A stretch of 64,000 nucleotides of DNA from contig NC_089280.1 of assembly GCF_963678975.1 (NCBI RefSeq), forward strand, positions 33,188,603 to 33,252,602, given 5' to 3'. This stretch comes from Dysidea avara (taxonomy: Eukaryota; Porifera; Demospongiae; Dictyoceratida; Dysideidae). Positions 9,008-47,935 of this stretch are shown piece after piece (position 1 is the stretch's first letter; each line of letters opens with the position of its first letter). The translations under genes were made by a program, and so were the position numbers. Under the pieces are notes generated by a model. That model was not told the origin of the DNA. It made no database searches and saw only the letters and a list, made by a program, of their open reading frames with translations.

Positions 9008-12000
9008 GTATTAATATTTGTAATTTTTAAGTGGAATAATATGTGTACTTACAGTTATGAAGGTACATTTCACCCAAACACAATACGCTGGTTCAGAAGA
9101 TACAGGATTTGTACTGGTAACATTGGAACTAGTTGGAGGAACATCCAGTAGACCATTTGATGTCACTGTTACTCCATTAGAACAGTCACCATTGTCTTCT
9201 GAAGGTAATAGTGTGTATGATAATGTGTTGATTGAAGAGTGTTTGACTAACAGGTGGTGTTGACTTTAACAATACTACACTAACTGCTACATTTGGTAGT
9301 GGGATGACAACTAGTAGTGTTAGTGTACCAGTAGTGGATGATATGTTAACAAAAGGAAGAAATGAAACATTTGATTTGATGTTAAGTGTACCATCATCAC
9401 TTGGTCCAGCAATAACGGCAGGTGGTAAAGATAGAGCAATAGGAGTTATCATTGATACTACCAGTGAGTGTATAAAGTGATATTAGAATATGAGTAATGT
9501 GTTGTGTAGTGTTGGTAGTGGAGTTTGGATCAGATGAGTTTGTTGGTTCAGAGTCATCAGGACATGTAGAAGTTGTAATGATAATATCAGGAGGATCATC
9601 TATCACACCTATTGAAGTAGTGGTGACTTCTTCTGAACAATCACCAGTGTCAGCAAGAGGTGAGGGATACATTAACAAGTAACACAATGTATGAACTAGT
9701 GATTACTGTACTGTGATAGGATCAGGTGTAGACTTTGACTCTAATCCAATTACTATAATATTTGGTGTTGTAGAAGTTAGGAAAACAGTTAACATACCAG
9801 TGAGTTGTGATAGGAGGGTGGAAGGAGTAGAGACATTTGATATTAGATTATCACTACCAAGTAATAATCCTCAAGTATCACTAAGAAAGAGTAACAGACT
9901 GCGATCTTCTAAAGTAAGGATCACAGATAGTACAGGTCAGTAATGAAGTAGTAGTCAGTGTAGGTGATAATATTATCTAATCCAAAACAGCCAAGCTGTA
10001 AAAAAAGAGTGCGGCCCTGAGAAAGGCTATGGTGAAAAAAGATGTGAAATCCAAGGTGGCGGCCAAGAAATGGCTGTGATGGTAGGTTAATAGTAAAAAT
10101 TTTAATAACGACAATTCAGGTGAATTTTGTGCCAAGACCAAGCGGCACCAAATTCACTGAATTGTTGTTATTAAAATTTTTACTATTAACCTACCATCAC
10201 AGCCATTTCTTGGCCGCCACCTTGGATTTCACATCTTTTTTCACCATAGCCTTTCCCAGGGCCGCACTCTTTTTTTACAGCTTGGCTGTTTTGGATTAAA
10301 TTTCACTTCTTTTTGTATTTGTATACCCCAAAGCCGTCCATAGGCGGCTTTAGGGCTTTTTAACCTGTCATTTTTTTCTTTACTACAGGAAGAAGAAAAG
10401 ATGAAGCAGGGTGATTTCTTTGTAGCTGACCTCTCTGCAAGGTGATCCTTCTAGCTGATCTCTCTACCGGATGACTTGTTTGCAGCTGAACTCTCTACCA
10501 GGTAACTTCTTCTAGCTGATCTTTCTACAGGGTGATTTGTTTGTAGCTGAATTCTCTACAGGGTGATTTGTTTGCAGCTAAACTGCTGAACTCTCTACAA
10601 TGTAACTTCTTCTAGCTGAACTCTCTACGGGTGGCTTGTTTCTATAGCTGATCTCTCTGCAGGGTGACTTGTTTCTAGCTGAACTCTTTACAGGGTGATT
10701 TGTTTGTAGCTGAACTCTCTACAAGGTAACTTCTTCTAGCTGATCTTTCTACAGGATAATTTGTTTATAGCTGAATTCTCTACAGGGAGATATGTTTGCA
10801 GCTGAACTCTCTATATGGTAGTTTCTTTGTAGCTGAACTCTCTACAGTGTAACTTCTTCTTGCTGAACTCTCTACAGGTGGCTTGTTTCTAGCTGATCTC
10901 TCTGCAGGGTGACTTGTTTCTAGCTGAACTCTCTACAGGGTGATTTGTTTGTAGCTGAACTCTCTACAATGTAACTTCTTCTAGCTGAACTCTCTACAGG
11001 ATGACTTGTTTCTAGCTGATCTCTTTACAGGGTGATCTGTTCGTAGTTGAACTCTGTACAGAGTGATTTGTTTGCAGCTGAACTCTCTTACATGGTGGTT
11101 TCTTTGTAGCTGAACTCTCTACAAAGTGACTTCTTCTAGCTGATCTATCTACAGGATGACTTGTTTCTAACTGAACTATTTACAGTGTGATCTGTTCATA
11201 GCGGAACTTTCTACTGGGTGATTTGTTTGCAGCTAAACTCTTTGCATGATTGTTTCTTTGTAATTGAACTCTCTACAAGGTAACTTCTTCTAGCTGATCT
11301 CTCTACAGGATGACTTGTTTCTAACTGAACTATTTACAGTGTGATCTGTTCATAGCGGAACTTTCTACTGGGTGATTTGTTTGCAGCTAAACTCTTTGCA
11401 TGATTGTTTCTTTGTAACTGAACTCTCTACAAGGTAACTTCTTCTAGCTGATCTCTCTACAGGATGACTTGTTTCTAACTGAACTATTTACAGTGTGATC
11501 TGTTCATAGCGGAACTTTCTACTGGGTGATTTGTTTGCAGCTAAACTCTTTGCATGATTGTTTCTTTGTAACTGAACTCTCTACAATGTGACTTCTTCTA
11601 GCTGATCTCTCTACAGGATGACTTGTTTCTAACTGAACTCTCTATAGTGTGATCTGTTCATAGCGGAACTTTCTACTGGGTGATTTGTTTGCAGCTAAAC
11701 TCTTTGCATGATTGTTTCTTTTTAACTGAACTCTCTACAAGGTAACTTCTTCTAGCTGATCTCTCTACAGGGCAATTTGTTTGTAGTTGAATTTTCTACA
11801 GAGTGATTTATTTGAGCTGAACTCTCTACATGATGGCTTCTTTGTAGCTGAACTCTCTATTAGGTACCTTTTTCTAGCTGATCTGACTACAGGGTGACAT
11901 GTTTGTAGCTGAATTCCCTACAGAATAACTTGCAATGTATACATGCAGCTGAATGCTTTATTAGGGTGGCTGTTCTATTAGAGTATCTCGATCTCGCATT

Positions 12001-13628
12001 TGCTGCACGTAGTTGCGCCTTTCGAATCATAACTCAGTGATTTGTAATCCGATTCTTCTGTACTACTGCAAGAACTTTCTATGATGATTATTCCAGCTAC
12101 ATACTGATTTTCAGCTTGTTGCTCTAAGCGGTTTGCCTGGTAGACACGAAAACTTATAGTTTTTTTATTCATAAAAATCGATCGCGTAATTTTGACACAG
12201 GTTGGGTTTTGTGTCATATCTCCATGGTCTTTATCTCGATTCCTTTCAAACCACAAAAAGGCACTCCTACGATGGTTGCTCCATCTACATATCAATTTTC
12301 AACTGATTCCTCCATGGGGTTTACTCTGTAGGCGTGACAGACCTTCGACCTTATTGTACACAAATAATCGGTAATAACTCCGTGAATGTTCATCGGATTC
12401 CTACCAAAGTTGGTACGGACATCCGCCTTAATGAGCCCTTTAAGTGTGCCAAATTTCAGCCCAATCCAAGCACGCATTCGTGTTTTATGGCGAATTTAGC
12501 GAAGTGTGCGAAATGAAGAAGATGAAGAAGAAAAAAACGAAGAAATTAAAACGAAATTTTGCTCGCTCGTATCTCGGAAATGGCTGGAGCGATTTTCTTC
12601 AAATTTGGTATGTAGACTCCCCTAATTGGGCGGCACGTCTCTAGCAAATTTTGTTCCAATCGGATAAGGGATCACAGAGCTACATAGGTGTGAAAATTGC
12701 GTTTTCTTTCTTCCTGTTGATATACTCACGGTGTGGCGCGCCGGCTTCTTGGGCCGCACGACACACTATCGTGTGTCTTGATACAGTTGAGGTGAACTTT
12801 AACAAGTCATCATATGAAGTAAGGGAAGACGGTGATGAAGTGATGATAATGATAGTACTGAATCAACCATCATCCAAACCATTTGATGTGATGATCAGTT
12901 TAATGGATGTGACTACAACAGGTATATGTGCAATGTATATTGAATTAATAGAACTTAATTCTATCTCAATTTAGGAGGAGATGATTACAGAAGTCAGAGG
13001 ACTATCACTATCACTATACCAGCTAATCAGATGTTAACATCATTCACTATAAACATCATCAACAACAACATTACAGAATGTGATGAAACATTTACACTAA
13101 CACTTAGTGTTACATCTTCACCTTGTGGAGTTATTAGTGGAAGTGATGATACTAGTGAAGTGATGATAAGAGATAATGATGGTAGGAGAAGTGTTAGTGA
13201 TTATGTTGTGTTATTACTGACCAACAGGTGTAATGTTGTCATTTAACCAATCACAATATGCTATTGAAGAGAACATGACTCCATTATCAGTTGGTCTAAT
13301 ACTAAACAGGACTACCTCTGAATATGTTATAGTAGAAGTTAGTGTAAATGATGGATCAGCCAAAGGTAGTAGCGTATTAATTGTTGATGTAAAGTTGAGA
13401 GATATTCTACTACAGCTGGTATTGACTATGATAGATCAGGAGCTCCACTAGTGTTTAATGTGACTATTAGTAGTGGAATGACATCTTCATCATTTGATGT
13501 GAACATCACTGACAATATGATGCGAGATGGTGATAAGATATTCTCCATTACTATTAGACTAATATTAACTTGTTTACCAATAACCATCAAGTCTAATACT
13601 ACCTGTGTGACTATCAGGGATGACGAAA
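8597..13628 (+). CDS. Calx-beta tandem-domain protein gene, block 1 (partial, ten exons)
   Basis: Predicted exons: 8597-8740, 8801-9007, 9055-9204, 9254-9463, 9510-9659, 9720-9935, 12787-12921, 12975-13181, 13228-13365 and 13416-13628. Each has AG before and GT after it, and every junction is phase 1, so exon pairs can be added or lost without changing frame. Each pair encodes one Calx-beta domain: exon A gives the first strands and exon B starts with a G-x-D-[FY] motif, contains an E-x-x-E-x-F-type motif and ends with an acidic [IV]-x-D segment. In known proteins, Calx-beta domains are extracellular or cytosolic Ca2+-binding beta-sandwiches (Na/Ca exchangers, adhesion GPCR V1, FREM/FRAS, sponge aggregation factors). 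A sponge aggregation-factor-like adhesion protein is the likeliest class; this is inference. No signal peptide, start, stop or transmembrane segment is visible, so the block is internal. Most introns are 46-60 bp; the intron between 9935 and 12787 is enlarged by HLE-B. Confidence 0.8.
9055..9463 (+). CDS. Calx-beta domain 2 of block 1 (exons 9055-9204 and 9254-9463)
   Basis: Exon A encodes QYAGSEDTGFVLVTLELVGG. Exon B encodes GVDFNNTTLTATFGSG, then GRNETFDLMLSVPSSLGP and IIDTT. The intron of 49 bp is nearly identical to that between the block 2 counterparts. Confidence 0.82.
9510..9935 (+). CDS. Calx-beta domain 3 of block 1 (exons 9510-9659 and 9720-9935)
   Basis: Exon A encodes FVGSESSGHVEVVMIISGG. 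Exon B encodes GSGVDFDSNPITIIFGV, then VEGVETFDIRLSLPSNNP and ITDSTG. The intron of 60 bp is conserved in block 2. The following intron holds HLE-B. Confidence 0.82.
9976..10300. repeat. Terminal hairpin of HLE-B
   Basis: Inverted-repeat arms of about 155 bp (TCTAATCCAAAACAGCC.. with ..GGCTGTTTTGGATTA) enclosing a short loop around 10128-10150. Arms contain GGTGGCGGCCAAGAAATGGC and AAATTTTAATAACGACAATT, with inverse partners. Confidence 0.9.
10420..11950. repeat. ~31-bp tandem array of HLE-B with a 154-bp higher-order unit
   Basis: Units read as the inverse of those in HLE-A (TGTAGCTGAACTCTCTACA..). A block beginning ACAGGATGACTTGTTTCTAA recurs at 11151, 11305, 11459 and 11613, that is every 154 bp (five units), with near identity. 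This shows local amplification of a multi-unit block rather than single-unit slippage. Only one such block is present in the related array at about 62165. Confidence 0.88.
12787..13181 (+). CDS. Calx-beta domain 4 of block 1 (exons 12787-12921 and 12975-13181)
   Basis: Exon A starts six bases after the end of HLE-B and encodes VREDGDEVMIMIVLNQPSSK. Exon B encodes GGDDYRSQRTITITIPANQ, then ECDETFTLTLSVTSSPCG and IRDNDG. Block 2 keeps only the exon A counterpart (53116-53247). Confidence 0.8.
13228..13628 (+). CDS. Calx-beta domain 5 of block 1 (exons 13228-13365 and 13416-13628)
   Basis: Exon A encodes SFNQSQYAIEENMTPLSVGL. Exon B encodes AGIDYDRSGAPLVFNVTISS, then DGDKIFSITIRL and TIRDDE. 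It ends with a phase-1 GTATGG donor at 13629. No next exon follows before the HLE insertions at 13692; the next phase-compatible acceptor of the same type is at 49516. Confidence 0.78.
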
Positions 13629-13691
13629 GTATGGTTGTAGTAGGCGTATGTTATGTAGTGCTCTGTTAGTCTTTGTTCATTGTAATGACTA

Positions 13692-14252
13692 TCTAATCCA
13701 AAACAGCCAAGCTGTAAAAAACGTGTGCGGCCCTCAAAAAGGCCATGGTGAAAAAAGATGTGAAATCCAAGGTGGCGGCCAAGAAATGGCTGTGATGGTA
13801 GGTTAATGGTAAAAATTTTAATAACGACAATTCAGGTGAATTTTTGTGCTGCTTGGTCTTGGCACAAAATTCACCTGAATTGTCATTATTAAAATTTTTA
13901 CCATTAACCTACCATCACAGCCATTTCTTGGCCGCCACCTTGGATTTCACATCTTTTTTCACCATAGCCTTTTTGAGGGCCACACACGTTTTATACAGCT
14001 TGGCTGTTTTGGATTAGATTTCATTTCTTTTTGTATTTGTATACCTCAAAGTCGGCCTATGGCCGGCTTTGGGACTTTTTTAACCTATGTTTTTTTCTTT
14101 ACCACAGGAAGAAGAAAAGATGAAGTAGATGTACTTTAAATATTATATCAGTAAATGTACAATTATATATATAATACATATATTGATTACAGAAATCTCC
14201 ATGGTGGTTTCTTTGTAACTGAACACTCTACAAGGTGACTTCTTCTAGATCG
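13692..14252 (+). mobile_element. HLE-C: 5' half of a Helitron-like element
   Basis: Plus-oriented hairpin 13692-14019, linker with small GC-rich hairpin, AGGAAGAAGAAAAGATGAAG block, and the first two array units (..GTGACTTCTTCTAGA). It then fuses head to head with HLE-D, which lies in the opposite orientation. Body and 3' end are missing. Confidence 0.75.
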
Positions 14253-14905
14253 GCTAGAAACAAATCACCCTGGAGAGAGATCAGTTAGAAACAAGTCACC
14301 CTGTAGAGAGACCAACTGGAAACTGGAGAGAATTCAGCTACATTTTGTAGAGTGTTTCAGCTAGAAATAAGCCACCATGTGGTGAGTTCAATTATAAACC
14401 TTTTACCATGTAGTCAAAGAGTACAGTTACATTATGAGGCTCCCTGTAGAAAATAACTACATACACATTTCCCTGTAGCTGCAAACAGTTTAACCTGTGT
14501 GACTTATTTTTATGATCAATCAACAACATTAAACATTATTGCCTAAAGTACATATAGCTAAACAAATCATTAAAATCTTCTTCATAATAATCTTCTCTCT
14601 AGATCTGTGGTAAAGAAAAAGTCAAGTTAAAAGAACCTAAAGCTGGCCATAGGCTGGCTTTAGGTATGAAATTACAAAAAGAAGTGATATCCACTCAAAA
14701 ACAGCCAAGCTGTAAAAAGGGTGTTGCCTCCAAAAAAGCCAGGGTGAAAAAAGATGTGAAATCAAAGGTGGTCGCCAAGAAATGGCTGTGATGGTAGGTT
14801 AATGGCAAAAATTGCAATAGCGACAATTCAAGTGAATTTGGTGCCGACCCTAGCATTTTTGGAGGCCACACTCTTCTTTTCACGGCTTGGCTGTTTTTGA
14901 TTAGA
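14253..14905 (-). mobile_element. HLE-D: 5' part of a Helitron-like element, other subfamily
   Basis: Minus-oriented. Array remnant 14253-14480, a distinctive linker (14481-14689) shared with HLE-H, and a hairpin at 14692-14905 that has lost much of one arm. It ends TTTGATTAGA followed by T. The array edge and linker match the right end of HLE-F (38760-38870), defining a subfamily distinct from HLE-B/E/G. Confidence 0.7.
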
Positions 14906-14906
14906 T

Positions 14907-16753: not shown

Positions 16754-16758
16754 CTCTG

Positions 16759-18629: not shown

Positions 18630-19513
18630 TTCCTTAGAACATCAAGACACACGGTAGTGTGTCGTGCGGCCCAAGAAGCCGGCGCGTAACACCCGTGAGT
18701 ATATTGACAGGAAGAAAGAAAACGCAATTTTCGCACCTCCGTAGCTCTGTGCTTCCTTGATGAAACAAGACGATTTTTGCTGTGGACATGCCCCCCAACT
18801 GCAGCACTCTACATTCCAAATTTGAGCGAAATCGCTTCGCGCGTTCCCTAGATATGCGACTTCAAAAATTGGCTGAGTTTCTTCGTTTTTTTTTCTTTTT
18901 CTTCTTATTCTTATTTTTCTTTTTCTTGTCGCACACTTACAAAAACTGCTATAAAACTCGAACGCGTTATCCGATTGCCTTGAAATTTGGCACACAGAAG
19001 GGGGGTATAAAGGCGCATCTCGGTACCAACTTTGGCTGGAATACCATAAACAGACAAAGAGTTATGAGCGATTATGCACGAAAAATAACACCAATATGTT
19101 GTCACGCCTACAGGGTAAACCGCGTATGGGAAGAAGCTGAAAATCGGTGGGTGAATAGGTTAACTATTGAACCTCAAACCTTTTGTGGTTTGAAAGAAAT
19201 CGAGCTAAAAACCAGGAAGATACAGCGAGAAAATCAACAGTGTGTAACAATTACGCAATCGAGATTAGCTAATTTTTAATATTTTTATTTTATTATTATT
19301 ATTATTATGCTTGCCACGCCTACCAGGTAAACCGCTTGGGGTAATGCTTTCAAAATCGCTGTACAGATGGAGTTATCATCTTAGAAAGGCTCTTCAATGG
19401 TGTAGAAGAATTAGACTTAAATCCACGGAGTTATAACACGAAATCCAACTTGGTGTAGCAAGTGCGAGATCGAGATACTCTAATAGAGCAGTCATCCTAA
19501 TAGAGCAGTCACC

Positions 19514-22500
19514 CTGAACAGAATTAAAGAGATCAGTTAGAAATAAGTAACCTGTATAGAGATCAGCTACAAACAAATCACCCTGTAGAGAGTTCAGCTA
19601 CAAACAATTCACCCTGTTAAAACATCAGTTAGAAGAAGATTTCTTGTAGAGAGTTCAGATACAAACAAATCACCCTGTTGAAAGATCAGCTAGAAGATGT
19701 CACCTTGTAGATAGTTCAGTTACAAAGAAACCACCATGTAGAGAATTCAGCTACAAACTAGTGACCCTGTAGATACATCAGCTAGAAGAAGTTACCTTGT
19801 AGAGAGTTCAGCTACAAAGAAACCATTCTGTAAAGAGCTCAGCTGCAAACAAATCACCTATACAGAATTCAGCTACAAACAAATCACCCTGTAGAGAGAT
19901 CAGCTAGAAGAAGTTACCTTGTAGATAGTTCAGCTACAAACAAATCATCCTGTAGAGAGATCAGCTAGAAGAAGTTACCTTGTAGATAGTTCAGCTACAA
20001 ACAATTCACCCTGTACAGAGCTCAGTTAAAAGAGGTTTCCTTGTAAAAAGTTCAGCTACAAACAAATCACCCTGTAGAGAGATAAGTAAGAAGAAGTTAC
20101 CTTGTAGATCGTTCTGCTACAAACAATTCACCCTGTAAAGAGATCAGCTAGAAGAAGTTACCTTGTAGAGAGTTCAGCTACAAAGAAACCATCATGTAGA
20201 GAATTCAGCCGCAAACAAATCATCTATAGAGAGTTCAGCTACAAACAAACCTCCCTGTAGAGAGATCAGCTAAAAGAAGTTTCCTTGTAGAGAGTTCTGC
20301 TACAAACAAATCACCCTGTAGAAAGATCAGCTAGAAGAAATCACCTCGTAGAGAGTTCAGCTTCAAAGAAACAATCATGTGAGAGTTCAGGTACAAACAA
20401 ATTGTCCTGTAGAGAGATCAGCTAGAAGAAGTTACCTTGTAGAGAGTTCAGCTACAAAGAAACCATCATGTAGATAGTTCAGGTACAAACAAATCACCCT
20501 GTAGAAAGATCAGCTATAGAAGAAATCACCTTGTAGAGAGTTCAGCTACAAAGAATCTATCGTGTAGAGAGTTTAACTACAAACAAATCACCCTGTAGAA
20601 AGATCAGCTATAGAAGAAATCACCTTATAGAGAGTTCAGCTACAAAGAAACCATCATGTAGAGAGTTCAGCTACAAACAAATCGGCCTGTAGAGAGATCA
20701 GCTAGAAGAAATTACCTTGTAGAGAGTTCAGCTACAAAGAAACAATCATGTAGAGAGTTCAGCTGCAAACAAATCACCTGTAGAGAGTTCAGCTAGAAAC
20801 AAGTCACCCTGTAGAGAGATCAGCTAGAAACAAGTCACCTTGTAGAGAGTTCAGCTAGAAGAAGTAACATTGTAGAGCTACAAAGAAGCTACCATGTAGA
20901 GTTCAGCTGCAAACAAATCACCCTGTATAGAACTCAGCTACAAACAAATCGCCCTGTAGAAAGATTAGCTACAAGAAGTTACTTTATAGGGAGTTCAGCT
21001 ATGAACAGATCACCCTGTAGAGAGTTCAGCTACAAACAAATCACCCTGTAGAGAGTTAAGTTACAAAGAAACCACCATGTAGAGAGTTCAGCTGCAAAAA
21101 AAATCAATCACTCTGTAGAGAGTTCAGCTAGAAGAAGTCACCTTGTAGAGAGTTAAGCTGCAAATAAATCACCCTGTAGAGAATTCAGCTACAAACAAAT
21201 CACCCTGTAGAAAGATCAGCTAGAAGAAGTTACCTTGTAGAGAGTTCAGCTACAAAGAAACCACCATGTAGAGAGTTCAGCTGCAAACAAATCACCTGTA
21301 GAGAATTCAGCTAGAAACAAGTCACCCTGTAGAGACATCAGCTAGAAACAAGTCACCCTGTAGAGAGTTCAGCTAGAAGAAGTCACATTGTAGAGAGTTC
21401 AGCTACAAAGAAACTACCACGTAGAGAATCCAGCTGCAAACAAATCATCCTGTAGAGAGTTCAGCTAGAAGAAGTCACCTTTTAGAGAGTTCAGCTACAA
21501 AGCAACCACCATGTAAAGAGTTCAGCTACAAAAAACTCAATCACCTTGTAGAAAGATCGGCTAGAAGAAGTTACCTTGTAGAGAGTTCAGCTACAAAGAA
21601 ACCACCATGTAGAGAGTTCAGCTGCAAACAAATCACCCTGTAGAGAACTCAGCTACAAACAAATATGCAGAGAAAAAGATCAGCTAGAAGAAGTTACCTT
21701 GTAGAGAGTTCAGCTACAACGAAACCACCATGTAGAGAGTTCAGCTACAAACAAATCACCTGTAGAGAGTTCAGCTAGAAACAAGTCACCCTGTAGAGAG
21801 TTCAGCTAGAAGAAGTCACATTGTAGAGAGTTCAGCTACAATGAAACTCCCATGTAGAGAGTTCAGCTGCAAACAAATCACCCTGTAGAGAACTCAGCTA
21901 CAAACAAATATGCAGTGAAAAAGATCAGCTAGAAGAAGTTACCTTGTAGAGAGTTCAGCTACAACGAAACCACCATGTAGAGAGTTCAGCTACAAACAAA
22001 TCACCTGTAGAGAGTTCAGCTAGAAACAAGTCACCCTGTAGAGAGATCAGCTAGAAACAAGTCACCTTGTAGAGAGTTCAGCTAGAAGAAGTCACATTGT
22101 AGAGAGTTCAGCTACAAAGAAACCACCATTTAGAGAGTTCAGCTGCAAACAAATCACCCAGTAGAAAGTTCAGCTATGAACAGATCACCCTGTTGAGAGT
22201 TCAGTTTGAAACAAGGAATCCTGTAGAGAAATCACCTAGAAGTATCGCCTTGTAGAGTTCAGCTACAAACAAATCACCTGTAGAGAGTTCAGCTACAAAC
22301 AAATCACCCTGTAGAGAGATCAGCTAGAAGAAGTTACCTTGTAGGGATTTCAGCTACAAACAAATCACCCTGTAGAGAGTTCAGCTACAAAGAAACTATT
22401 CTGTAAAGAGCTCAGCTGCAAACAAATCACTTGTACAGAATTCAGCTACAAACAAATCGCCCTGTAGAGAGATCAGCTAGAAGAAATTACCTTGTAGATA

Positions 22501-23040
22501 GTTCAGCTACAAACAAATCACCCTGTAGAAAGATCAGTTAGAAGAAGTTACCTTGGAGAAAGTTCAGCTACAAAGAAACCATTTTGTAAAGAGCTCAGCT
22601 GCAAACAAATCACCTGTACAGAATTCAACTACGAACAAATCACCCTGTAGAGATCAGCTATAAGAAGTTACCTTGTAGATAGTTCAGCTACAAACAAATC
22701 TCCCTGTAGAGAGATCAGCTAGAAGAAATTACCTTGTAGAGAGTTCAGCTGTAAAGAAATCACCCTGTAGAAAATTCTGCCAGAAACAAATTGCCCTGTA
22801 GAAAGATCAGTTAGAAGAAGTTACCTTTTAGAGAGTTCAGCTACAAAGAAACCATTCTGTAAAGAGCTCAGCTGCAAACAAATCACCTATACAAAATTCA
22901 GCTACAAACACATCACCTGTAGAGAGATCAGCTAGAAGAAGTTACCTTGTAGATCGTTCAGCTACAAACAATTCATCCTGTAGAGAGAGCAATTAGAAGA
23001 AGTCACCTTGTAGAGTGTTCAGTTACAAAGAAACCACCAT
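19514..23040. repeat. ~31-bp tandem array of HLE-E (~3.5 kb)
   Basis: Over one hundred units. Sub-types alternate: TACAAACAAATCACCCTG, GAAGAAGTTACCTTG, AAGAAACCACCATG and GAAACAAGTCACCCTG. Multi-unit blocks recur with high identity (for example around 21740-22140). Confidence 0.92.
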
Positions 23041-23062
23041 GGAGATTTCTGTAATCAATATA

Positions 23063-23292
23063 TGTGACCGGATTTGCGAAAAGGGGTCTTCCACACACAT
23101 CCAATTCCGTAAATGTTGGAGACCATAACTCAGTGTTCAAGTAACATAATTATTAACCTGAACATTTCACCATGTATTCAGCTATAGTGGTGCTCACCAC
23201 TGCCCAAATATCAAGGCAATAGCTCTTTCCAATCTGAAGTTATCAATTGTCAAAGTTGGCAAATTGGACCCCTTTTCGCAAATCCGGTCACA
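23063..23292. mobile_element. TGTGACC-terminal MITE nested in HLE-E
   Basis: A 230-bp element with inverted ends TGTGACCGGATTTGCGAAAA, extending over ~26 bp. It is flanked by TATA/TATG, compatible with a TA duplication. Relatives are at 51418-51656 and 53448-54737. Confidence 0.8.
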
Positions 23293-23459
23293 TATGTATT
23301 ATACAGTATATATAATTTGTACATTTACTGATAAAATATTTAAAGTACATCTACTTCATCTTTTCTTCTTCCTGTAGTAAAGAAAAAAACATAGGTTTAA
23401 AAAGTCCCAAAGCTGGCCATAGGCCGGCTTTGGGGTATACAAATACAAAAAGAAATGAA

Positions 23460-23780
23460 ATCTAATCCAAAACAGCCAAACTGTAAAAAAAGTGTGCGGC
23501 CCTCAGAAAGGCTATGGTGAAAAAAGATGTGAAATCCAAGGTGGCGGCCAAGAAATGGCTGTGATGGTAGGTTAGTCGTAAAAATTTTAATAACGACAAT
23601 TCAGGTGAATTTTTGTGAAGCGGCACAAAAATTCACCTGAATTGTCATTATTAAAATTTTTACCACTAACCTACCATCACAGCCATTTCTTGGCCGCCAC
23701 CTTGGATTTCACATCTTTTTTCACCATAGCCTTTCTGAGGGCCACACACTTTTTTTACAGGTTGGCTGTTTTGGATTAGA
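23460..23780. repeat. Terminal hairpin of HLE-E
   Basis: Inverted-repeat arms with outer words ATCTAATCCAAAACAG and its inverse. The loop lies around 23615-23622. Matches the hairpins of the other HLE copies. Confidence 0.9.
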
Positions 23781-23783
23781 TTT

Positions 23784-33918: not shown

Positions 33919-34439
33919 TCAAGACACACGGTAGTGTGTCATGTGGCCAAGAAGCCCGCATGCAACACCGTGAGTATATTGACAGAAAGAAAGAAACTGT
34001 GATTTTTGCACCTCTGTAGCTCTGTGCTGCCTTTACAAAACAAGGCGACTTTTGCTGTGGACACGTCCGCCAACATCAGTACTCCACATACCAAATTTGA
34101 GCAAAATCATTTCAAATTTTCCCCAAGGTATGTGACTTCAAAAATTGGCTTAGTTTCTTCATTTTATATTTTTCTTCTTATTACACACTTCCAAAAGCTG
34201 CCATAAAATGCGAACGCCATATCCGATTGCCACGAAATTTGGCTTACATAAGGGGGGTATAAAGGCACATCTTGGTACCAAGTTTGGCGTGAAAAGATAA
34301 ACAGTCATTGAGTTATTATTGATTATTCATGAAAATAACACCAATATTTGTCACACCTACAGGATAAACCACTTATGAGAAGAAGCTGAAAATTGGTGCA
34401 TGGATAGGTTAACTATTAAACCTCAAACCTTTTGGTATT

Positions 34440-34935
34440 AGTTAAAGCACTGCTGTGAGTGCTATATGAAAAATATAGCACGAAAAGAGTGGGTGAGAGA
34501 CAAATGTAGCACGAGGCGAAGCTGAGTGCTGTATTTCGTCTCAAGACTACTCTCTCAGTGCTATATTTTTGTAAACCAGAACAAGGCAGTGTTTTAACTG
34601 ATTTAAAGAACTTCCTAGTTGGAGCTGGAGTGCATGCACAAAAGCATTCGAAACCCACCAAGGAGCCTTCAAACAATCGACTTTGCTCTGGATAGTGAGT
34701 GGACGTACATTGAATACCCTCTGTAGTGCTTTTTCTTCTAGTTCTGGGGTGCTTCTTCTCCATTTAATTGTCCTTGTCTCCTCGATTTTCGGATCGGGCA
34801 CCATGTAACTAATTCTTTTCTGCCCATGCACAGTACTATAACTACCTGCAATATAGCACTGTGGTCGCATATATAGCACTGCGGTCACATAAACTGTTCT
34901 GTATGGTAAATATAGCACTATTTTTGCTTTGATCT
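34440..34935. mobile_element. Insertion of unknown type in the HLE-F body
   Basis: HLE-E runs without a break from ..ACCTTTTG to TGGTTTGAAAG.. at 19175-19195. In HLE-F about 495 bp separate the same words. The insert has repeated ATAGCACT words near both ends. A - frame (34918-34547) includes MVPDPKIEETRTIKWRRST. No family is recognised. Confidence 0.5.
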
Positions 34936-37310
34936 TTTACCCTAAAGTTCTTTAATAGTTTAAAAGAAATCGAGGTAAAGTCCATGAAGCTACAACAAAA
35001 AAACCAACAGTGTGTAGCAATTATGAGATCGAGATTAGCTAATAAAAACAGTTACTTTCCACACCTACCAGAAAACCTCTTGGATTAATGCTCTGAAAAT
35101 TGCTGTATAGATGGAGCAATCATTTTAGAAAGGCTCTTTTATGGTGTAGAAGAATCAGAATTAAAGCCACAGAGTTATAGTAATGATTTGAAGATCTACT
35201 GTAGCCTTATCAAGGACATCACACTTCTGTTATTCTATACCTATATGCAGTACTGTAAAGTTATAATCTAATCTAATCTATATCATGAAATCCAACTCAG
35301 TATAGCAAGTGTGCCATTGAGATACTATAATAGAGCAGTCAACTATAAGAAGTACATTAATCTATTAAAGTATTCATCTATGACTTGTAGACCCTGCAAA
35401 GTGTTAAACCACATTTCAAATCACCCTGTAGAGCATTTAGCTAGAAACAAGTCACCTTGCAGAGAAATCAACTTGAAACAAGTCATCCTGTAGAAGGATC
35501 AGCTAGAAACCAGTTGCTTCAACTATATTTCAAGTCACCCTGTTGAGAGTTCAGCTGGAAACAAGTTACCTTGTAGAGAGATCAGCTGGAAATGAGTCAC
35601 CCTGTAGAAAGATCAGCTACATAATCATCCTGTAGAGAGATCAGCTGAAAACAAATCACCTTGTAGAGCTATAAACAAGTCACTCTGTAGAAATATCAGC
35701 TAGAAACAAACAGACACCGTTTAGAAAGATAGGCTAGAAACAAGCCATCCTACAGAGAGTTCAGCTACGTTTCAAGTCATCCTGCAGAGAGTTTAGTAGA
35801 ACAAATCACACAGACTGTCTGTAGAGACATCAGCTAGAAACAAATCTCTCAATAGAGAGATCAACTGGAAATCACCTTGTAGAGAGATTATCCAGAAACA
35901 AATCACTCTTTAGAGAGATTAGCTAGAAAAAATCCACCCTGTAGTAAGATCAGCTACATTTCAAATCTTCCTGTAGAAAGAAAATTACCCTATAGAAGTA
36001 TCAGTTAGAAACAAGTTATCCTGTAGAGATCAGCTAGAAATAAATCATGCTGTAGGGAGATAAGCTGGAAACAAGGCACCTTGTGGAGAGATCAGCTTGA
36101 TTGAATCACCCTGTAGAGATTCCAACTACATTTCAGGTCACCTTGTGGGGAGTTCAGCTACAAATCTCTCAGTAGGCAGATCAGCTAAATCACCCTGTAC
36201 AACATTCAGTTAGAAACAAATCCTATTATGAGAGATTAGCTAGGCACAAATCACTCTGTAGAGGGACCAGCTTGAACTAAAATGAGAGTTCAGCAAAAAA
36301 GAAGTCGCCCTGTAAAGAAATCACCCTGTAGAGAGATCAGCCTGCAAGAAATTTGTCATCCTGTAGCGAGATCAGCTACATTTCAAATCGCCCTGTAGAA
36401 AGACCAACTTGAAACAAATCACCCCACAGAAGGATCAGTTAGATACAAGTCATCTTGCAGAGAGATCAAATAGAATCAAGTCACTCTGTAAAGAAATTGG
36501 CTAGAAACAAGTCACCCTGTAGAAAGATCAAATCATGCTGTAGAGAAATCAGCTAGAAACAATCACTCTGTTGAGAGATCAGCTACAAAAAAATCTCTCA
36601 GTAGACAGTTTAGCTAGAAACAAATCACCCTGTACAGTATTCAGTTAGAAACAATTCAACCTGTAGAGAGATCAGCTAGAAACAAGAAACCCTGTAGAAA
36701 AATCAGCTTGAAAACAGATCACCCTGTACAACGATCAGTCAGAAGCAAGTCACTGAGTAGTGAGATTAGTTACCCTGTAGAGAGATCAGCTAGAAACAAG
36801 TCACTATGTAGAAAAATCAGATACATTTCAAATCACCCTGTAGAAAGGTCAGCTTGAAACATATAACCCTGTAGAAGGAACAAACCACCCTGTAGAGAGA
36901 TCCAAGTTACCCTACAGAGAATTCAGCTAGAAACATATCACCCTGTAGAACGATCAGTTACATTTCAAATCTCCCTGTAGAAAGATCAGATTGAAACAAA
37001 TCACCCCATAGAGAGATCAGTTAGAAACAAGTCACCCTGTAGAGGGATTGGCTTGAAACAGTTACCCTGTAGGAAAAGCTAGAAACAAATCACCGTATAG
37101 AGAGATCAGCTAGAAACAAGATACCCTGTAGAGAGCTCAGCTAAAAATAAGTCACCATGTAGAAAAATCAGCTACATTTCAAATCACCCTGTAGAAAAAT
37201 CAGCTTGAAACAAATCACCCTGTACAGTGATCAGTCAGAAACAAGTCACTGTGTAGAAAAATTATATACATTTTAAATCACCCTGTAGAAAGGTCAGCTT
37301 GAAACATATC

Positions 37311-38384
37311 CAGAGGCGTAGCCAGAACCCGGGCCACCCAGGCCCAGGCCCGGGCATCAATAAGTCAAGATACTCTAATTGAGCAGTCAAGATCGAGATA
37401 CTCTAATAGAGCAGTCACAGTATTCAGAGAAACCGTGTCAGTAGCTAGCTTGTGTGTGTAGTTATAAATAAGGAGATACAGTTGGTAGAGGGCAGCTATT
37501 GTCATCCAAGGGCGTAGGCAGGGGGTTCGGATGATTCGGATAAATCCCCCTCTCACTGAGAAACAGATTTTTTTTTAAACACCCAATCTTACAGCCCTGG
37601 AGCTCTCCGGTAGCTACTTGCACACTGCTGTGGCTCTGTAGCTACTACTTTTGAGGGTCACATTGCATTTATATATGCTGAATCATCAAAGTATTGAATC
37701 ACATGATCAATTGCGCACGTGATGCACGGTGGAAATGGTGAAGGACTGTTGGTTCAGACATATTACAAGGCAGCAGCTGCAACAAACTTGGGTGGTCATG
37801 TTATACGTGTGTCAGGTTAGTACAAACCGTGAATAGTTGATGTATACTACATGGTGAATGTTTTGTTTATTTGCCACATGTTGCAGGCACGTGTTGTCTG
37901 TAAAATATTGGAGTACAAGCCAAGTCTGAAGTTCAGGGAAGACTGGGAAGTTACAGACCATCAACAGAAGGACCGGCTGAGAATAATGTATACCTGGGAG
38001 AAAGTATTGCCGACTAGGGGACTCAAATGTGGAGTGCTAAAAAAGTTTGGTGAAGTTGACTGTCAGTATGTTGCCATCTGGAAGTGAAGATTAGTATTAC
38101 AGTAGGTTTATGGTTTCTATAAGCTGCATAAACAGCAGTGTGTAGGTTTTAGCTACAGTAGTTAGATGCACAAACACAACCTTTTAATGTTATTGCCCAA
38201 GAGCACATTTTGTGTATGCATCATTTTTGTTCAAAATCTGGTTCAGGCCTTCCCCCATGCATGCTGGACTCCTTCCAGAAAATTCTGGCTATGTTCCTGT
38301 TATCAGGTAGTTACCCTTTTTATTTACTTTGTTTTTAATCTTCAGCTAGGCTCTGGTATCACCAAAAGTCTGGCTACGCCCCTG
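37311..38384. mobile_element. hAT-like non-autonomous element with 8-bp TSD
   Basis: The ends CAGAGGCGTAGCCAGAA and (inverted) CAGGGGCGTAGCCAGA are flanked by perfect AACATATC octamers at 37303-37310 and 38385-38392, so the hAT class is firm. A second pair of related ends lies inside (CAAGGGCGTAGGCAGG near 37507, TCTGGCTATGTTCCTG ending near 38299). This suggests a nested relative of the element at 39586-40638. It includes a gene-like segment at 37737-38087. Confidence 0.85.
37737..38087 (+). CDS. Possible captured exon pair in hAT element
   Basis: An ATG frame at 37737-37815 ends at a GTTAGT donor. After a TTGCAG acceptor at 37887, a frame continues with ARVVCKILEYKPSLKFRED and ends at a stop (38085-38087). 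The same ILEYKPSLK segment and flanks occur on the - strand in the related element (39867-40052), so the segment travels with the transposon. No domain is recognised. The first-exon frame is uncertain. Confidence 0.3.
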
Positions 38385-38870
38385 AACATATCACCCTGTA
38401 GGGAGATCAGATAAAACCAAGTCACCTTGTAGAGAGTTCAGCTAGAAACATGTCTCCCTGTAGAATGATCAAGTACATTTCAAATCACCCTGTACAAAGA
38501 TCAGCTTGAAACAAATCACCCCGTAGAGAGATCAGTTAGAAACAAGTCAGCCTGTAGAGAGATTGACTTGAAACAGTTACCCTGTAGAAAGAGCTAGAAA
38601 CAAATCACTCCATTTTATTTTTTATTTGTTTATTTTTTCCCGGGCTAGATGGAATGCCCTATAGAGGGTTCACCTACAAGAAAACTATCCTGTATAAAGT
38701 TCAGCTACGTATCTTACAATTCTTTCTGTAGAGTTTAGTTATGTTGCAAGTCATTCTATGGCAAGTTCAACTATGTACAACCTGTTCACCATGTAGTCTA
38801 AGAGTACAGCTACATTATGATTCCCTGTAAAAAGTTTAGCTACATACACATTTCCCTGTAGAGTATCAAA

Positions 38871-40638: not shown

Positions 40639-41363
40639 GATCGTGGTAAATGTTTTGTGTGCCACCCAAAATTCTGCCTTTAAAATCATGAGGAAAAATC
40701 ATCCTACAGACATTGTATGCTGCGAAAACCACCTTTACGGTCCGTATAATACATAAAACAGCATTAAATACAACAAAACACTTACAGGTGGCCAGATATA
40801 ATTTGTTTCGAAAAATTGCCCAAAACTCCAATTTTAGTATCACTGCCTCACTCCTCACTCACTGACCACAGTTGCAAGCCTAGAGCCCAAACGAAGCAGC
40901 GTACAGTCACCATTTTACGCTACAACAACAAACTCACCGGTGGGATGTGCCTTTTAGGGTTCCGATGAGTGTACGCCCTGTGCGGCTTGTCTTTTCTTTT
41001 GTCTTCAATCAGGCTGCTTGTCTTCTTCATCCAACGAAACCATATAGAGGCATTAATTTTCAATATCAACACTTTCTTTAAGCAGCATAATAGATGTCAC
41101 AAAATTATTTAAGGTGCTTATAGTATGCTACTGTACGGAGGTACTGGTACTCCACGATAGGTCACAAGATCATGCCCATTCTTTATTCTACGTATATCGA
41201 TCTATCTATCGAGACCACGCCCCTTTTACGCTAGCTGTATTTATGACCACACTCCTTCAAGTTGGTAGGCTGATTCGAGATACTCTAGTCTAATAATCGA
41301 TCAAAACCACGATGAACACACCCTTTTTGGGCAAGCACACATCTTTTGCAGGCTGACTGGATA
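40639..41363. other. No supported gene
   Basis: A 76-codon - frame (40628-40858) overlaps the hAT end and has no domain. A TACTCTAGTCTAATA motif lies near 41280. Confidence 0.4.
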
Positions 41364-42299
41364 TCAAGACACGCGATAGTGTGTCGTGCGGCCCAAGAAG
41401 CCGGCGCGCCACACCGTCAGTATATTAACAGGATATCAAGACACACGATAGTGTGTCGTGCGGCCCAAGAAGCCGGCGCGCAACACCGTGAGTATATTAA
41501 CAGGAAGAAAGGAAACGCAATTTTCACACCTATTTAGCTCTGTGATCCCTTATCCGATTGAACCAAATTTGCTAGAGACGTGCCGCCCAGTTAGGGGAGT
41601 CTACATACCAAATTTGAAGAAAATCGCTCCGCCATTTCCGAGATACGAGCGAACAAAATTTCATTTCAATTTCTTCGTTTTTTTTTCTTCTACTTCTTCA
41701 TTTCGCACACTTCGCAAAATCCGCCATAAAACACGAATGCGTGCTCCGATCGGGCTAAAATTTGGCACGCTTAAAGGGCTCATTAAGGCGGATCTCTGTA
41801 CCAACTTTGGTAGGAATCCGATGAACATTCACTGAGTTATGGCCGATTATTTGCGTAAAATAAGATCGAAGGTCTGTCACGCCTACAGGGTAAACTCCTT
41901 TGAGGAATCAGTTGAAAATTGATATGTAGATGGAGCAACCATCGTAGGAGTGCCTTTTTGTGGTTTGAAAGGAATCAGGATAAAGACCATGGAGATATGA
42001 CACAAAACCCAACCTGTGTCAAAATTACGCGATCGATTTTTATGAATAAAAAAACTATTAGTTTTCGTGTCTACCAGGCAAACTTCTTAGAGCAGCGAGC
42101 TGAAAATCAGTATGTAGCTGGAATAATTATCATAGAAAGTCCTTGCAGTAGTACAGAAGAATCGGATTACAAACCACTGAGTTATGATTCGAAAGACAAC
42201 TACGTGTAACAAATGCGAGATCGAGATACTCTAATAGAACAGTCACCCTAATAAAGTATTCAGCTGCATTTATAATTTACTCAATTATATTACATTGCA

Positions 42300-45200
42300 A
42301 GTTATTCTGTAGGGAATCAAGTCACCCTGTAGTCAGCCAGAAGAAGATATCTAATAGAGAGTTCAGCTACAAAGAAACCATCATGTAGAGAGTTCAGCTC
42401 AAACAAATTGCCCTGTAGAGAGATCAGCTAGAAGAAGTTACCTTGTGGAGAGTTCAGTTACAAAGAAACAATCATGCAAAGAGTGCAGCTGCAAACAAAT
42501 AACCCATTAGAAAGTTCCGCTATGAACAGATCACACTGTAGAGAGTTCAGTTAGAAACAAGTCATCTTGTAGAGAGATCAGCTAGAAGAAGTCACATTGT
42601 AGAGAGTTCAACTACAAAGAAACTACCATGTAGAGAGTTCAGCTGCAAACAAATCACCCTGTAGAGAACTCAGCTACAAACAAATATGCCCTGTAGAAAG
42701 ATCAGCTAGAAGAAGTTACCTTGTAGGGAGTTCAGCTGCGAACAGATCACCCCTAGAGAGTTCAGCTGCAAACAGATCACCCTGTAGAGAGTTCAGCTAC
42801 AAACAAATCACCCTGTAGAGAGTTCAGTTACAAAGAAATCATCCTGTAGAGAGTTCAGCTATGAAAAGATCACCCTGTAGAGAGTTCAGCTAGAAGAAGT
42901 CACCTTTTAGAGAGTTCAGCTACAAAGCAACCACCATGTAGAGAGTTCAGCTACAAAAAATCAATCACTCTGTAGAGAGTTCAGCTAGAAGAAATCACCT
43001 TGTAGAGAGTTCAGCTGCAAATAAATCACCCTGTAGAGAATCCAGCTACAAACAAATCACCCTGTAGACAGATCAGCTAGAAGAAGTTACCTTGTAGAGA
43101 GTTCAGCTACAAATAAGTCACCCTGTAGAGAGTTCAGCTACAAACAAATCACCCTGTAGAGAGTTCAGTTACAAAGAAATCATCCTGTAGAGAGTTAAGC
43201 TATGAAAAGATCACCCTGTAGAGAGTTCAGCTACAAGAAGTCACCTTTTAGAGAGTTCAGCTACAAAGCAACCACCATGTAGAGAGTTCAGCTACAAAAA
43301 AAAATCAATCACTCTGTAGAGAGATCAGCTAGAAGAAGTCACCTTGTAGAGAGTTCAGCTGCAAATAAATCACCCTGTAGAGAATCCAGCTACAAACAAA
43401 TCACCTTGTAGAAAGATCAGCTAGAAGAAGTTACCTTGTAGAGAGTTCAGCTGCAAATAAATCACCCTGTAGAGAATCCAGCTACAAACAAATCACCCTG
43501 TAGAGAGTTCAGTTACAAAGAAATCATCATGTAGAGAGTTCAGCTATGAAAAGATCACCCTGTAGAGAGTTCAGCTACAAGAAGTCACCTTTTAGAGAGT
43601 TCAGCTACAAAGCAACCACCATGTAGAGAGTTCAGCTACAAAAAAAAATCTATCACTCTGTAGAGTGATCAGCTAGAAGAAGTCACCTTGTAGAGAGTTC
43701 AGCTGCAAATAAATCACCCTGTAGAGAATCCAGCTACAAACAAATCACCCTGTAGAAAGATCAGCTAGAAGAAGTTACCTTTTAGAGAGTTCAGTTACAA
43801 AGAAACCACCATGTAGAGAGTTCAGCTGCAAACAAATCACCTGTAGAGAGTTCAGCTAGAAACAAGTTACCCTGTAGAGAGATCAGCTAGAAACAAGTCA
43901 CCCTGTAGAGAGTTCAGCTAGAAGAAGTCACATTGCAGAGAGTTCAGCTACAATGAAACTCCCATGTAGAGAGTTCAGCTGCAAACAAATCACCCTGTAG
44001 AAAGATCAGCTAGAAACAAGTCACCCTGTAGAGAGATCAGCTAGAAACAAGTCACCCTGTAGAGAGTTCAGCTAGAAGAAGTCACATTGTAGAGAGTTCA
44101 GCTACAATGAAACTCCCATGTAGAGAGTTCAGCTGCAAACAAATTACCCTGTAGAGAACTCAGCTACAAACAAATATGCCCTGTAAAAATATCAGCTAGA
44201 AGAAGTTACCTTGTAGAGAGTTCAGCTACAAAGAAACCACCATGTAGAGAGTTCAACTGCAAACAAATCACCTGTAGAGAGTTCAGCTAGAAACAAGTCA
44301 CCCTGTAGAGAGATCAGCTAGAAACAAGTGACCCTGTAGAGAGTTCAGCTAGAAGAAGTCACATTGTAGAGAGTTCAGCTATAATGAAACTCCCATGTAG
44401 AGAGTTCAGCTGCAAACAAATTACCCTGTAGAGAACTCAACTACAAACAAATATGCCCTGTAAAAATATCAGCTAGAAGAAGTTACCTTGTAGAGAGTTC
44501 AGCTACAAAGAAACCACCATGTAGAGAGTTCAACTGCAAACAAATCACCTGTAGAGAGTTCAGCTAGAAACAAGTCACCCTGTAGAGAGATCAGCTAGAA
44601 ACAAGTGACCCTGTAGAGAGTTCAGCTAGAAGAAGTTACCTTGTAGAGAGGTCAGCTATAAAGAAACCACCATGTAGATAGTTCAGCTGCAAACAAATTG
44701 CCCTGTAGAGAGTTCAGCTACAAACAAATCACCCTGTAGAGAGTTCAGCTAGAAGAAGTTACCTTGTAGAGAGGTCAGCTATAAAGAAACCACCATGTAG
44801 AGAGTTCAGCTGCAAACAAATCACCCAGTAGAAAGTTCTGCTATGAACAGATCACCCTGTTGAGAGTTTAGTTAGAAACAAGTCATCCTGTAGAGAGATC
44901 ACCTAGAAGTATCACCTTGTAGAGAATTCAGCTACAAACAAGTCATCCTGTAGAGAGATCAGCTAGAAGAAGTTACCTTGTAGGGAGTTCAGCTACGAAC
45001 AGATCACCATGTAGAGAGTTCAGCTACAAATAAATCACCTTGTAGAGAGTTCAGCTAGAAGAAGTCACATTTAGAGAGTTCAGCTACAAAGAAACTACCA
45101 TGTAGAGAGTTCAGCTGCAAACAAATCACCCTGTAGAGAACTCAGCTACAAACAAATATGCCCTGTAGAAAGATCAGCTAGAAGAAGTTACCTTGTAGGG

Positions 45201-47350
45201 AGTTCAGCTACGAACACATCACCCTGTAGAGAGTTCAGCTACAAACAAATCACCCTGTAGAGAGTTCAGTTACAAAGAAACCACCATGTAGAGAGTTCAG
45301 CTGCAAAAAAATCAATCACTCTGTAAGGGGTTCAGCTAGAAGAAGTCATCTTGTAGAGAATTCAGCTGCAAATAAATCACCTTGTAGAGAGTTCAGCTGC
45401 AAACAAATCACCTGTAGAGAGTTCAGCTAGAAACAAGTCACCCTGTAGAGAGATCAGCTAGAAACAAGACACCTTGTAGAGAGTTCAGCTACAAAGAAAC
45501 TACCATGTAGAGAGTTCAGCTGCAAACAAACACCCTGTAGAGAACTCAGCTACAAACAAATCACCTGTAGAAAGATTAGCTAGAAGAAGTTACCTTGTAT
45601 GGAGTTCAGCTACAAACAAATCACCCTGTAGAGAGTTCAGCTACAAAGAAATCATCATGTAGAGAGTTCAGCTGCAAACAAATCATCCTGTAGAGAGTTC
45701 AGCTATGAAAAGATCACCCTTTAGAGAGTTCAGCTAGAAGACGTCACCTTTTAGAGAGTTCAGCTACAAAGTAACCACCTTGTAGAGAGTTCAGCTGCAA
45801 AAACATCAATAACTCTGTAGAGAGTTCAGCTAGAAGAAGTCACCTTGTAGAGAGTTCAGCTGCAAATAAATCACCCTGTAGAGAATCCAGCTACAAACAA
45901 ATCACCCTGTAGAAAGATCAGCTAAACGAAGTTACATTGTAGAGAGTTCAGCTACAAAGAAACCACCATGTAGAGAGTTCAGCTGCAAACAAATCACCTG
46001 TAGAGAGTTCAGCTAGAAACAAGTCACCGTGTAGAGAATCAGCTATAAACAAGTTACCCTGTAGAGAGTTCAGTTATAGAGGAAGTCGCATTGTAGAGAG
46101 TTCAGCTACAAAGAAACTACCATGCAGTGAGTTCAGCTGCAAACAAATCACCCTGTAGAAAGTTCAGCTATGAACAGATCACCCTGTAGAGAGATCAGCT
46201 AGAAACAAGTCACCCTGTAGAGAGTTCAGCTAGAAGAAGTTACCTTGTAGAGAGTTCAGCTACAAAGAAACCACCATGTAGAGAGTTCAGCTGCAAACAA
46301 ATCACCCACTAGAAAGTTCAGCTATGAACAGATCACCCTGTTGAGAGTTCAGTTAGAAACAAGTCATCCTGTAGAGAGATCACCTTGAAGTATCACCTTG
46401 TAGAGAGTTCAGCTACAAACAAATCACCTGTAGGGATTTCAGCTACAAACAAATCACCCTGTAGAGAGTTCAGCTACAAAGAAGTCATTATGTAGAGAGT
46501 TCAGCTGCAAACAAATCACCCAGTAGAAAGTTCAGCTATGAACAGATCACCCTGTTGAGAGTTCAGTTGGAAGTAAGTCACCCTGTAGAGAGATCACCTA
46601 GAAGTATCACCTTGTAGAGAGTTCAGCTACAAACAAGTCATCCTGTAGAGAGATCAGCTAGAAGAAGTTACCTTGTAGAGAGTTCAGCTACAAAGAAACC
46701 ACCATGTAGAGAGTTCAGCTGCAAACAAATCCCCCAGTAGAAAGTTCAGCTATGAACAGATCACCCTGTTGAGAGTTCAGTTAGAAACAAGTCACCCTGT
46801 AGAGAGATCACCTAGAAGTATCACCTTGTAGAGAGTTCAGCTACAAACAAATCACCTGTAGGGATTTCAGCAACAAACAAATCACCCTGTAGAGAGTTCA
46901 GCTACAAAGAAATCATCATGTAGAGAGTTCAGCTGCAAACAAATCATCCTGTAGAGAGTTCAGCTATGAAAAGATCACCCTGTAGAGAGTTCAGCTATAA
47001 GAAGTCACCTTTTAGAGAGTTCAGCTACAAAGCAATCACCATGTAGAGGGTTCAGCTGCAAACAAATCACCCTGTAGAGAATTCAGCTACAAACAAATCT
47101 TCCTGTAGAGAGACCAGCTAGAAACAAGTCACCCTGTAGACAGATCAGCTAAAAGAAGTTACCTTGTAGAGAGTTCAGCTGCAAACAAATCACCCTGTAG
47201 AGAATTCAACTACAAACAGATAACCCTGCAGAGAGTTCAGCTAGAGTCAAGCCACCCTGTAGAGAGAATCCTGTAAAGAGTTCATCTACGCACAAGCAGA
47301 TCACCCTGTAGAGAGTTCAGCTACATTTCAAGTCACCCGTAGAGAGAACA
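42300..47350. repeat. ~31-bp tandem array of HLE-G (~5 kb)
   Basis: About 160 units. A marker unit (CACCTTTTAGAGAGTTCAGC followed by TACAAAGCAACC) recurs near 42901, 43241 and 43585, spacing 341-344 bp, about eleven units. Another block (TACAATGAAACTCCC) recurs at about 279 bp, nine units. This is a satellite-like higher-order organisation inside a mobile element. Confidence 0.92.
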
Positions 47351-47604
47351 GCTGCAAATTATCCTGTGGGGATTAATTGACATGTAATAAATATATGCAA
47401 GATTTCATAATATAATGAACTCTTGATATATGCATTATATATATAATTTGTACATTTACTGATAAAATCAGAATGAGTTAAAGTATTTATAAAATCTGCT
47501 TCATCTTTTTCTTTTTCCTGTGGTAAACAAAAATATATAGGTTAAAAAGCCCCAAAGCTGGCCATATGCCGGCTTTGGGGTATACAAATACAAAAAGAAG
47601 TGAA

Positions 47605-47935
47605 ATCTAATCAAAAACAGCCAAGCTGTAAAAAAAGGAGTGCGGCCCTTGAAAAGGCTATGGTGAAAAAAGATGTGAAATCCAAGGTGGCGGCCAAGAA
47701 ATGGCTGTGATGGTAGGTTAATGGTAAAAAATTTAATAACGACAATTCAGGTGAATTTTGTGCCAATTGACCAAGCGGCACCAAATTCACCTGAATTGTC
47801 GTTATTAAAATTTTTACCATTAACCTACCATCACAGCCATTTTTTGGCCGCCACCTTGGATTTCACATCTTTTTCATCATAGCCTTTTCAAGGGCCGCAC
47901 TCCTTTTTTTTACAGCTTGGTTGTTTTTGATTAGA
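47605..47935. repeat. Terminal hairpin of HLE-G
   Basis: Arms of about 155 bp, loop around 47760-47777 (GCCAATTGACCAAGCGGC), with outer words TCTAATCAAAAACAGCC and its inverse. Confidence 0.9.

Follow-up and report, generated by a model that had tools for sequence, protein, structure and literature searches.

The systems closest to the locus treated here are Helitron1, the Helentrons with their HINE/DINE-1 relatives, and Helitron2. Helitron1 elements (Helraiser/Helibat) start with 5' TC, insert at A^T without duplicating it, carry a 3' hairpin whose stem lies 10-12 nt from a CTRR-3' terminus, and have non-autonomous relatives in very high copy number. Helraiser itself is described with a CTAG-3' terminus and, 11 nt upstream of it, a 19-bp palindrome; the same paper mentions CTTG-3' ends in maize and in Helraiser after deletion of the hairpin or of the RTS (PMC4778049). 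Helentron, HINE and DINE-1 elements of mite, Drosophila and oyster (Cg_HINE) are described as two modules around a satellite-like tandem array, with a 3' stem-loop and no target duplication (PMC4067079, PMC7492417). Hairpins at both termini are described for some members of Helitron2 (e.g. Fusarium FoHeli), a group with other targets, whose terminal inverted repeats are asymmetric and about 12-16 bp long (PMC5148889). Our search of the literature returned no Helitron with a 5'-terminal palindrome of ~330 bp, a weak statement that extends to titles and abstracts.

We analysed a window of 64,000 bases (NC_089280.1, 33,188,603-33,252,602), the whole stretch of DNA under study, which belongs to an assembly of 550.8 Mb. 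The window contains copies of a family in which the element consists, in order, of 5'-TC, a hairpin of ~326 bp, a linker, an array of 31-bp units, a non-coding body of ~0.86 kb and a stem-loop with a CTTGA terminus. This unit is seen directly, and its parts were checked by tandem-repeat and self-similarity analysis together with reading of the window sequence. The copies and their parts are as follows, in window coordinates.

4083..6138, minus strand: older partial copy without a body (array, linker, hairpin)
9976..12781, plus strand: copy A, complete (hairpin 9976-10301, linker, array 10407-11932, body, 3' stem-loop with CTTGA); empty site at window 53043-53179
9976..10301, plus strand: giant hairpin (5'-terminal palindrome) of copy A, -184.2 kcal/mol, z -33
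10302..10412, plus strand: linker of copy A, with a small GC-rich hairpin inside, spotted by eye
12759..12781, plus strand: 3'-terminal stem-loop of copy A, GACACAC-TATC-GTGTGTC-TTGA
13692..14905, no strand assigned: double-headed copy E, without a body (hairpin, linker and array, then array, linker and hairpin in inverted orientation)
18642..23780, minus strand: copy D, complete, within a BEL/Pao pol reading frame, with a divergent body (~71% identical to A)
33919..38866, minus strand: older copy without a hairpin (3' end, broken body, arrays)
41364..47935, minus strand: copy B, complete; empty site in locus L023
49064..49495, minus strand: partial old copy (linker and hairpin), initial bases altered
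54742..55176, plus strand: partial copy (hairpin, linker), cut short by a second-family insertion
55217..55239, minus strand: 3' end of the second family (stem GACTCAC/GTGAGTC), with the TTGA end of the main family and a different body
59225..60487, plus strand: tandem duplicate of the copy F hairpin and array start, 1479-bp shift
60713..63355, plus strand: copy F, array and body as in the family, hairpin different (~0.64 kb); 5' end set by eye

The full order of parts is found in three window copies (A, B and D), to which copy F, with its different 0.64-kb hairpin, and at least five partial copies are added. Thus, the preliminary description's count of nine copies sharing one order holds only when partials are included; otherwise there are three, or four with copy F. 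The family occupies 26,146 of the 64,000 window bases (41%), where about half had been estimated, and position 47935, previously given as the limit of the feature, is the 5' end of copy B. The central proposal, that hairpin, array and stem-loop make up one mobile unit, was borne out, as the parts stand in this order in the window and hairpin, linker and body do so in all 20 copies fetched from the genome by head similarity.

Several other features were noted in the window. An insertion flanked by inverted repeats TGTGACCGGATTTGCGAAAAG, probably a MITE, lies inside copy D at 23063-23292, and the 3' end of copy B carries a 72-bp tandem duplication that takes in the flanking TATCC (41359-41505). 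The 1479-bp tandem duplication with the alternative 0.64-kb hairpin spans 59225-62476; its two stretches differ at 117 of 1,260 positions in an ungapped comparison, though by eye the two hairpins resemble each other. A short repeat around CTCTAATAGAGCAGTCAC occurs near many elements (e.g. at 561-601, 2683-2739, 29565-29666 and 50649-50687) and also where the transposon body begins, and the copy B insertion adjoins one. Repeated exons, which we take to resemble Calx-beta domains, are present at 12785-13700 and from 53043 onwards, and one of them provides the empty site of copy A.

Across the 550.8-Mb assembly, with up to three mismatches allowed, we obtained 11,482 matches to the 3' end, 22,512 to the hairpin arms and 9,712 to the hairpin/linker junction, while reversed control patterns of the 3' end, arm and junction gave 0 matches each. 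The arm matches correspond to about 11,256 hairpins if each hairpin has two recognisable arms, and hairpins and 3' ends are therefore close to 1:1, a ratio that is approximate as the patterns are unequal in length and decay rate. At the same threshold, the 3'-end motif has seven matches in the window and none in 100 shuffles, and all eight window hairpins of the common type adjoin a linker match. In the part of C1 covered by the exact-match lists of both patterns, an exact hairpin/linker junction lies within 10 kb upstream on the same strand for 18 of the 54 exact 3' ends, at distances of 2.9-5.6 kb. For the same 54 ends, junctions were found upstream on the other strand in 0, downstream on the same strand in 3 and downstream on the other strand in 0, and 1,000 random placements linked at most 5 ends. 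The fraction 18/54 is a lower bound, for both lists hold exact matches only, and exact junctions are ~30% of those with up to three mismatches by our own arithmetic (C1 density against genome). The expected genome-wide co-occurrence of hairpin and stem-loop is thus seen both in the counts and in the strand-specific linkage. Of the 20 fetched copies, 16 show two recognisable ends, L010 with its altered start among them; L015, L022 and L028 reach the end of the fetched DNA and the match of L017 ends ~20 bp before the 3' end. The mean element length is 4.6 kb over 19 copies (16 chosen by head similarity, and A, B and D), and multiplying it by the 11,482 ends gives a family total of very roughly 50 Mb.

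The ends of the family and its insertion site can be read directly from the copies. At the 5' end an A precedes TCTAATC, and at the 3' end CGACNCACTANCGTGNGTCTTGA is followed by T. The 5' flank is A in all 42 counted sites (19 fetched copies, window copies A, B, D and E, and 19 further heads), a count that omits L010, whose start is altered, and three older heads in the window (5801, 49154, 54742); those at 5801 and 54742 are also preceded by A, and the start of 49154 is altered. The 3' flank is T in 15 of the 16 fetched copies with a visible 3' end, L012 having C, and in L025 the terminus is TTAA, then T. In a further sample, drawn at intervals of about five from the first 100 exact 3' ends, T follows in 20 of 20 sites. 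The A and T borders proposed earlier are thereby upheld. With an A just before the start and another as the last base of the 3' end, the letters alone would equally allow both ends to be placed one base over (ATC...CTTG).

Empty sites were found for four insertions, all paralogous. Window 53043-53179 matches the flanks of copy A at 94% over 137 bp, ungapped, and a site in L023 matches those of copy B at 89% with no gap at the junction. The L014 empty site, in L039, shows 83% identity across 78 bp, a 2-bp gap lying four bases past the junction, and that for L021, contained in copy E, is 90% identical with an 8-bp gap in a TA-rich stretch past the junction. Two further spanning matches, L027 against the window (70%, junction gap) and L021 against L026 (68%, gapped), were not counted. 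At none of the four sites is the A^T target duplicated. Copy D agrees: it is flanked by a Peptidase_A17/RVT_1 ORF on one side and an Integrase_H2C2 ORF on the other, and the two open frames are in register at the junction of NK and CSKEL with 0 bp duplicated. The split gene, at 17458-18387 and 24038-27322, is the pol of a BEL/Pao retrotransposon, a eukaryotic marker. These results support the earlier expectation of empty sites lacking a target duplication. Since many sites read TA-element-TA, duplication of TA was considered and rejected: the empty site of copy A reads ...ATATTATACAG..., and copy D has the flanks AA and TG with the frame kept.

The unit might instead be an accidental or secondarily amplified composite, in which the hairpin is a separate foldback or MITE-type transposon lying next to satellite and body. 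On the other strand, A followed by TC is read at the inner hairpin end too, so that by eye the hairpin resembles two back-to-back 5' ends, and array and body are common to two different hairpins. However, hairpins and 3' ends are nearly equal in number, the hairpin is joined to the linker at thousands of places and in every common-type window hairpin, and the empty sites connect the outer hairpin end with the 3' stem-loop end. Target-site duplication, as expected of foldback elements and MITEs, was not found at the empty sites. We regard a composite origin as hardly credible, and a solo hairpin transposon was rejected on the genome-wide counts of ends, arms and junctions.

At the 3' end, both the main and the second family have a 7-bp stem, a 4-nt loop and TTGA, and the stem differs between them on both sides (GACACAC/GTGTGTC and GACTCAC/GTGAGTC). 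Folding of the last 60 nt returned the 7-bp stem in copy F and nearly so in copy D and the second family. In copy A, whose last 61 nt were folded, a longer alternative pairing has the lowest energy, and the z-scores for folding of the 3' ends are only -2.5 to -3.4. The exact 3'-end pattern gave 0 matches in viral contigs and prokaryote genome contigs. The second family has 1,252 3' ends genome-wide (up to one mismatch), and its window copy, running rightwards from 55217, sits in the linker of the copy at 54742. Near the termini of the main family lies a 9-bp subterminal inverted repeat, GTGCGGCCC at +34 and GGGCCGCAC at -31, with the 5' copy in 18 of 19 and the 3' copy in 19 of 19 elements; it may be coincidental. 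By our own estimate, about 0.03 nine-bp matches are expected by chance in the search space.

This repeat bears on the possibility of a Helentron-derived, HINE/DINE-1-like element whose ends have drifted. The central tandem array, the 3' stem-loop, the absence of a duplication and the 9-bp repeat itself are all in keeping with such a descent. Yet insertion is at A^T and not at TT, and exact matching of the first 40 against the last 200 nt of one copy found no inverted match of 10 bp or more. A Helentron origin is accordingly improbable in our judgement, and the resemblance to HINE/DINE-1 remarked on in the preliminary description holds for the layout but not for the target or the subterminal repeats, which do not exceed 9 bp.

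Taking the part order, the ends and the empty sites together, the family is most probably a non-autonomous rolling-circle transposon of Helitron type, to which we assign a probability of roughly 0.85; membership in a named Helitron class is unproven. We infer a single-strand step and an enzyme acting in trans. A Rep-helicase would nick the junction between A and TC and peel off one strand, stopping at the 3' stem-loop (CTTGA before T), and the freed strand would be inserted at another A^T, leaving that dinucleotide unduplicated. The 5' hairpin is the left end of the element and would fold once single-stranded, and the satellite array is carried along, its length changing in blocks between closely related copies. 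A precedent is Helraiser, whose 3' hairpin serves as terminator (PMC4778049).

The Rep domain PF14214 scored at 150 places in the genome. Thirty of these hits were viewed with about 1.5-kb flanks, which need not span to the element ends, and four loci were viewed beyond the Rep core (two past the ORF, both with TC...CTAG ends, and two within 9-10 kb). Among these four, no Rep-helicase with the family ends was found, so the autonomous partner anticipated in the preliminary description did not come to light there. The candidates L059-L062 are canonical Helitron loci with TC...CTAG ends by eye, L063 and L064, of other Rep classes, match the family ends only weakly, and the seeming Rep inside a family element at L043 belongs to a piece of canonical Helitron that inserted between the body and the array. 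Two autonomous Helitrons of the genome have, by eye, TC...CTAG ends and likewise the flanks A and T.

Movement by a tyrosine recombinase (Crypton-like) or by IS200/IS605-like single-strand transfer was also considered. Both of these mechanisms likewise leave no duplication, as found here, and hairpins are present at both ends of the family. The TC start and the strict A^T target are nonetheless the pattern of Helitrons, a pattern of flanks that the Helitrons of the same genome share, and we consider either mechanism very unlikely.

The 5' hairpin of copy A (9976-10301) has a folding energy of -184.2 kcal/mol against a mean of -36.4 for 100 shuffles (z -33), and its pairing begins at the third base. 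When left arms were compared with right arms for seven window hairpins, the true pairing averaged 94.55% identity, against 91.09% over the full set of 5,040 permutations, of which the true pairing alone reached the observed value. For six of the seven left arms the best match is its own right arm. Derived sites in these hairpins are mirrored in both arms in 30 cases and confined to a single arm in 51, and in a tree that also includes L019 each copy's two arms pair up, the close relatives A and L019 being the exception. The two arms of each hairpin thus evolve in concert, as the arms themselves record. Pairing between arms or repair, as we infer, would keep them alike. In young copies the private arm changes are few and by eye look unmirrored, which implies that the arms become homogenised either slowly or in connection with the source lineage.

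The arms might be kept alike without any DNA folding in transfer, through selection on an RNA hairpin (e.g. a small-RNA precursor) or through ordinary gene conversion acting on a palindrome in the chromosome. An RNA copy would fold into a near-perfect hairpin too, and mirrored changes are the expected product of compensatory selection or of arm-to-arm conversion. The palindrome stands, however, at the extreme end of the transposon, where DNA structure matters (in copy A it pairs from the third base), and the unmirrored look of the private changes counts against fast conversion after insertion. We therefore see this explanation as possible, if doubtful. A bolder suggestion is that the 5' palindrome acts as a working DNA hairpin end: the single-strand intermediate would be folded and self-primed, one arm would template the other, and the array would be re-sized in that replication step. 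The element would then be a cross of Helitron and hairpin-ended replicons, a scheme that we put forward as speculative and on balance unlikely.

The array contains 44 to 190 units of 31 bp by monomer count in 19 copies. Its length was compared among seven copy pairs from the alignments listed. L026 and L024 are 99.5% and 99.3% identical on either side of a 1.7-kb block of array, with one more small shift near the 3' end, and L020 and L027 (98.5-98.9% identical) differ by a single 31-bp step. Copies also combine parts in different ways: in copy D the hairpin is of the common type (about 91% to A) and the body reaches only about 71% identity, copy F has the common body (95%) with the alternative hairpin, and copy E holds an inverted array between two hairpins. 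From these mixtures of hairpin and body, the shared array probably serves as homology that allows exchange of the 5' and 3' halves. As the copies were chosen by head similarity, slower evolution of the head than of the body is not claimed. A coding body was rejected: when the top four ORFs of each of 21 bodies were compared, none was conserved in all 21, the longest stop-to-stop ORFs being 67-171 codons and some of them shared by close copies.

Compared with the known systems, the family follows the Helitron rules set out in the preliminary description (TC start, A/T target, 3' stem-loop, no duplication), as flank counts, empty sites and end motif agree. It resembles Helitron1 in all four and in the very high copy number of non-autonomous elements. 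It differs from Helitron1 in lacking the CTRR-3' end, having CTTGA (or CTTG if shifted by one) instead, and in its 7-bp stem, which lies 4 nt from the terminus and not 10-12 nt. These departures, together with the hairpin of ~326 bp, match the unusual traits pointed out at the start, namely the TTGA end, the abutting stem and the very large 5' hairpin. If the A at both sides is assigned to the other side, the family reads ATC...CTTG, which may be compared with the CTTG-3' ends mentioned in PMC4778049. With Helentron and HINE elements it shares the 3' palindrome and the central tandem repeats, but it inserts at A^T and not TT and has no subTIR of 11-15 bp, the longest exact match being 9 bp in the one copy compared. 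Its arrays of roughly 44-190 units of 31 bp also contrast with the oyster main clusters, which average up to 5 monomers, mostly of 140-180 bp (PMC7492417). Like some members of Helitron2, the family has hairpins at both termini; its 5' hairpin is far longer, and it has at most the 9-bp subterminal inverted repeat GTGCGGCCC/GGGCCGCAC, which may or may not correspond to the asymmetric repeats there. A TC start and an A^T target combined with another 3' end and a giant 5' hairpin widen the search scope for end-based Helitron finders, and the co-evolving arms would be a genomic trace of a folded state that is open to testing. The family further illustrates one way in which a 31-bp satellite is spread over chromosomes and re-sized.
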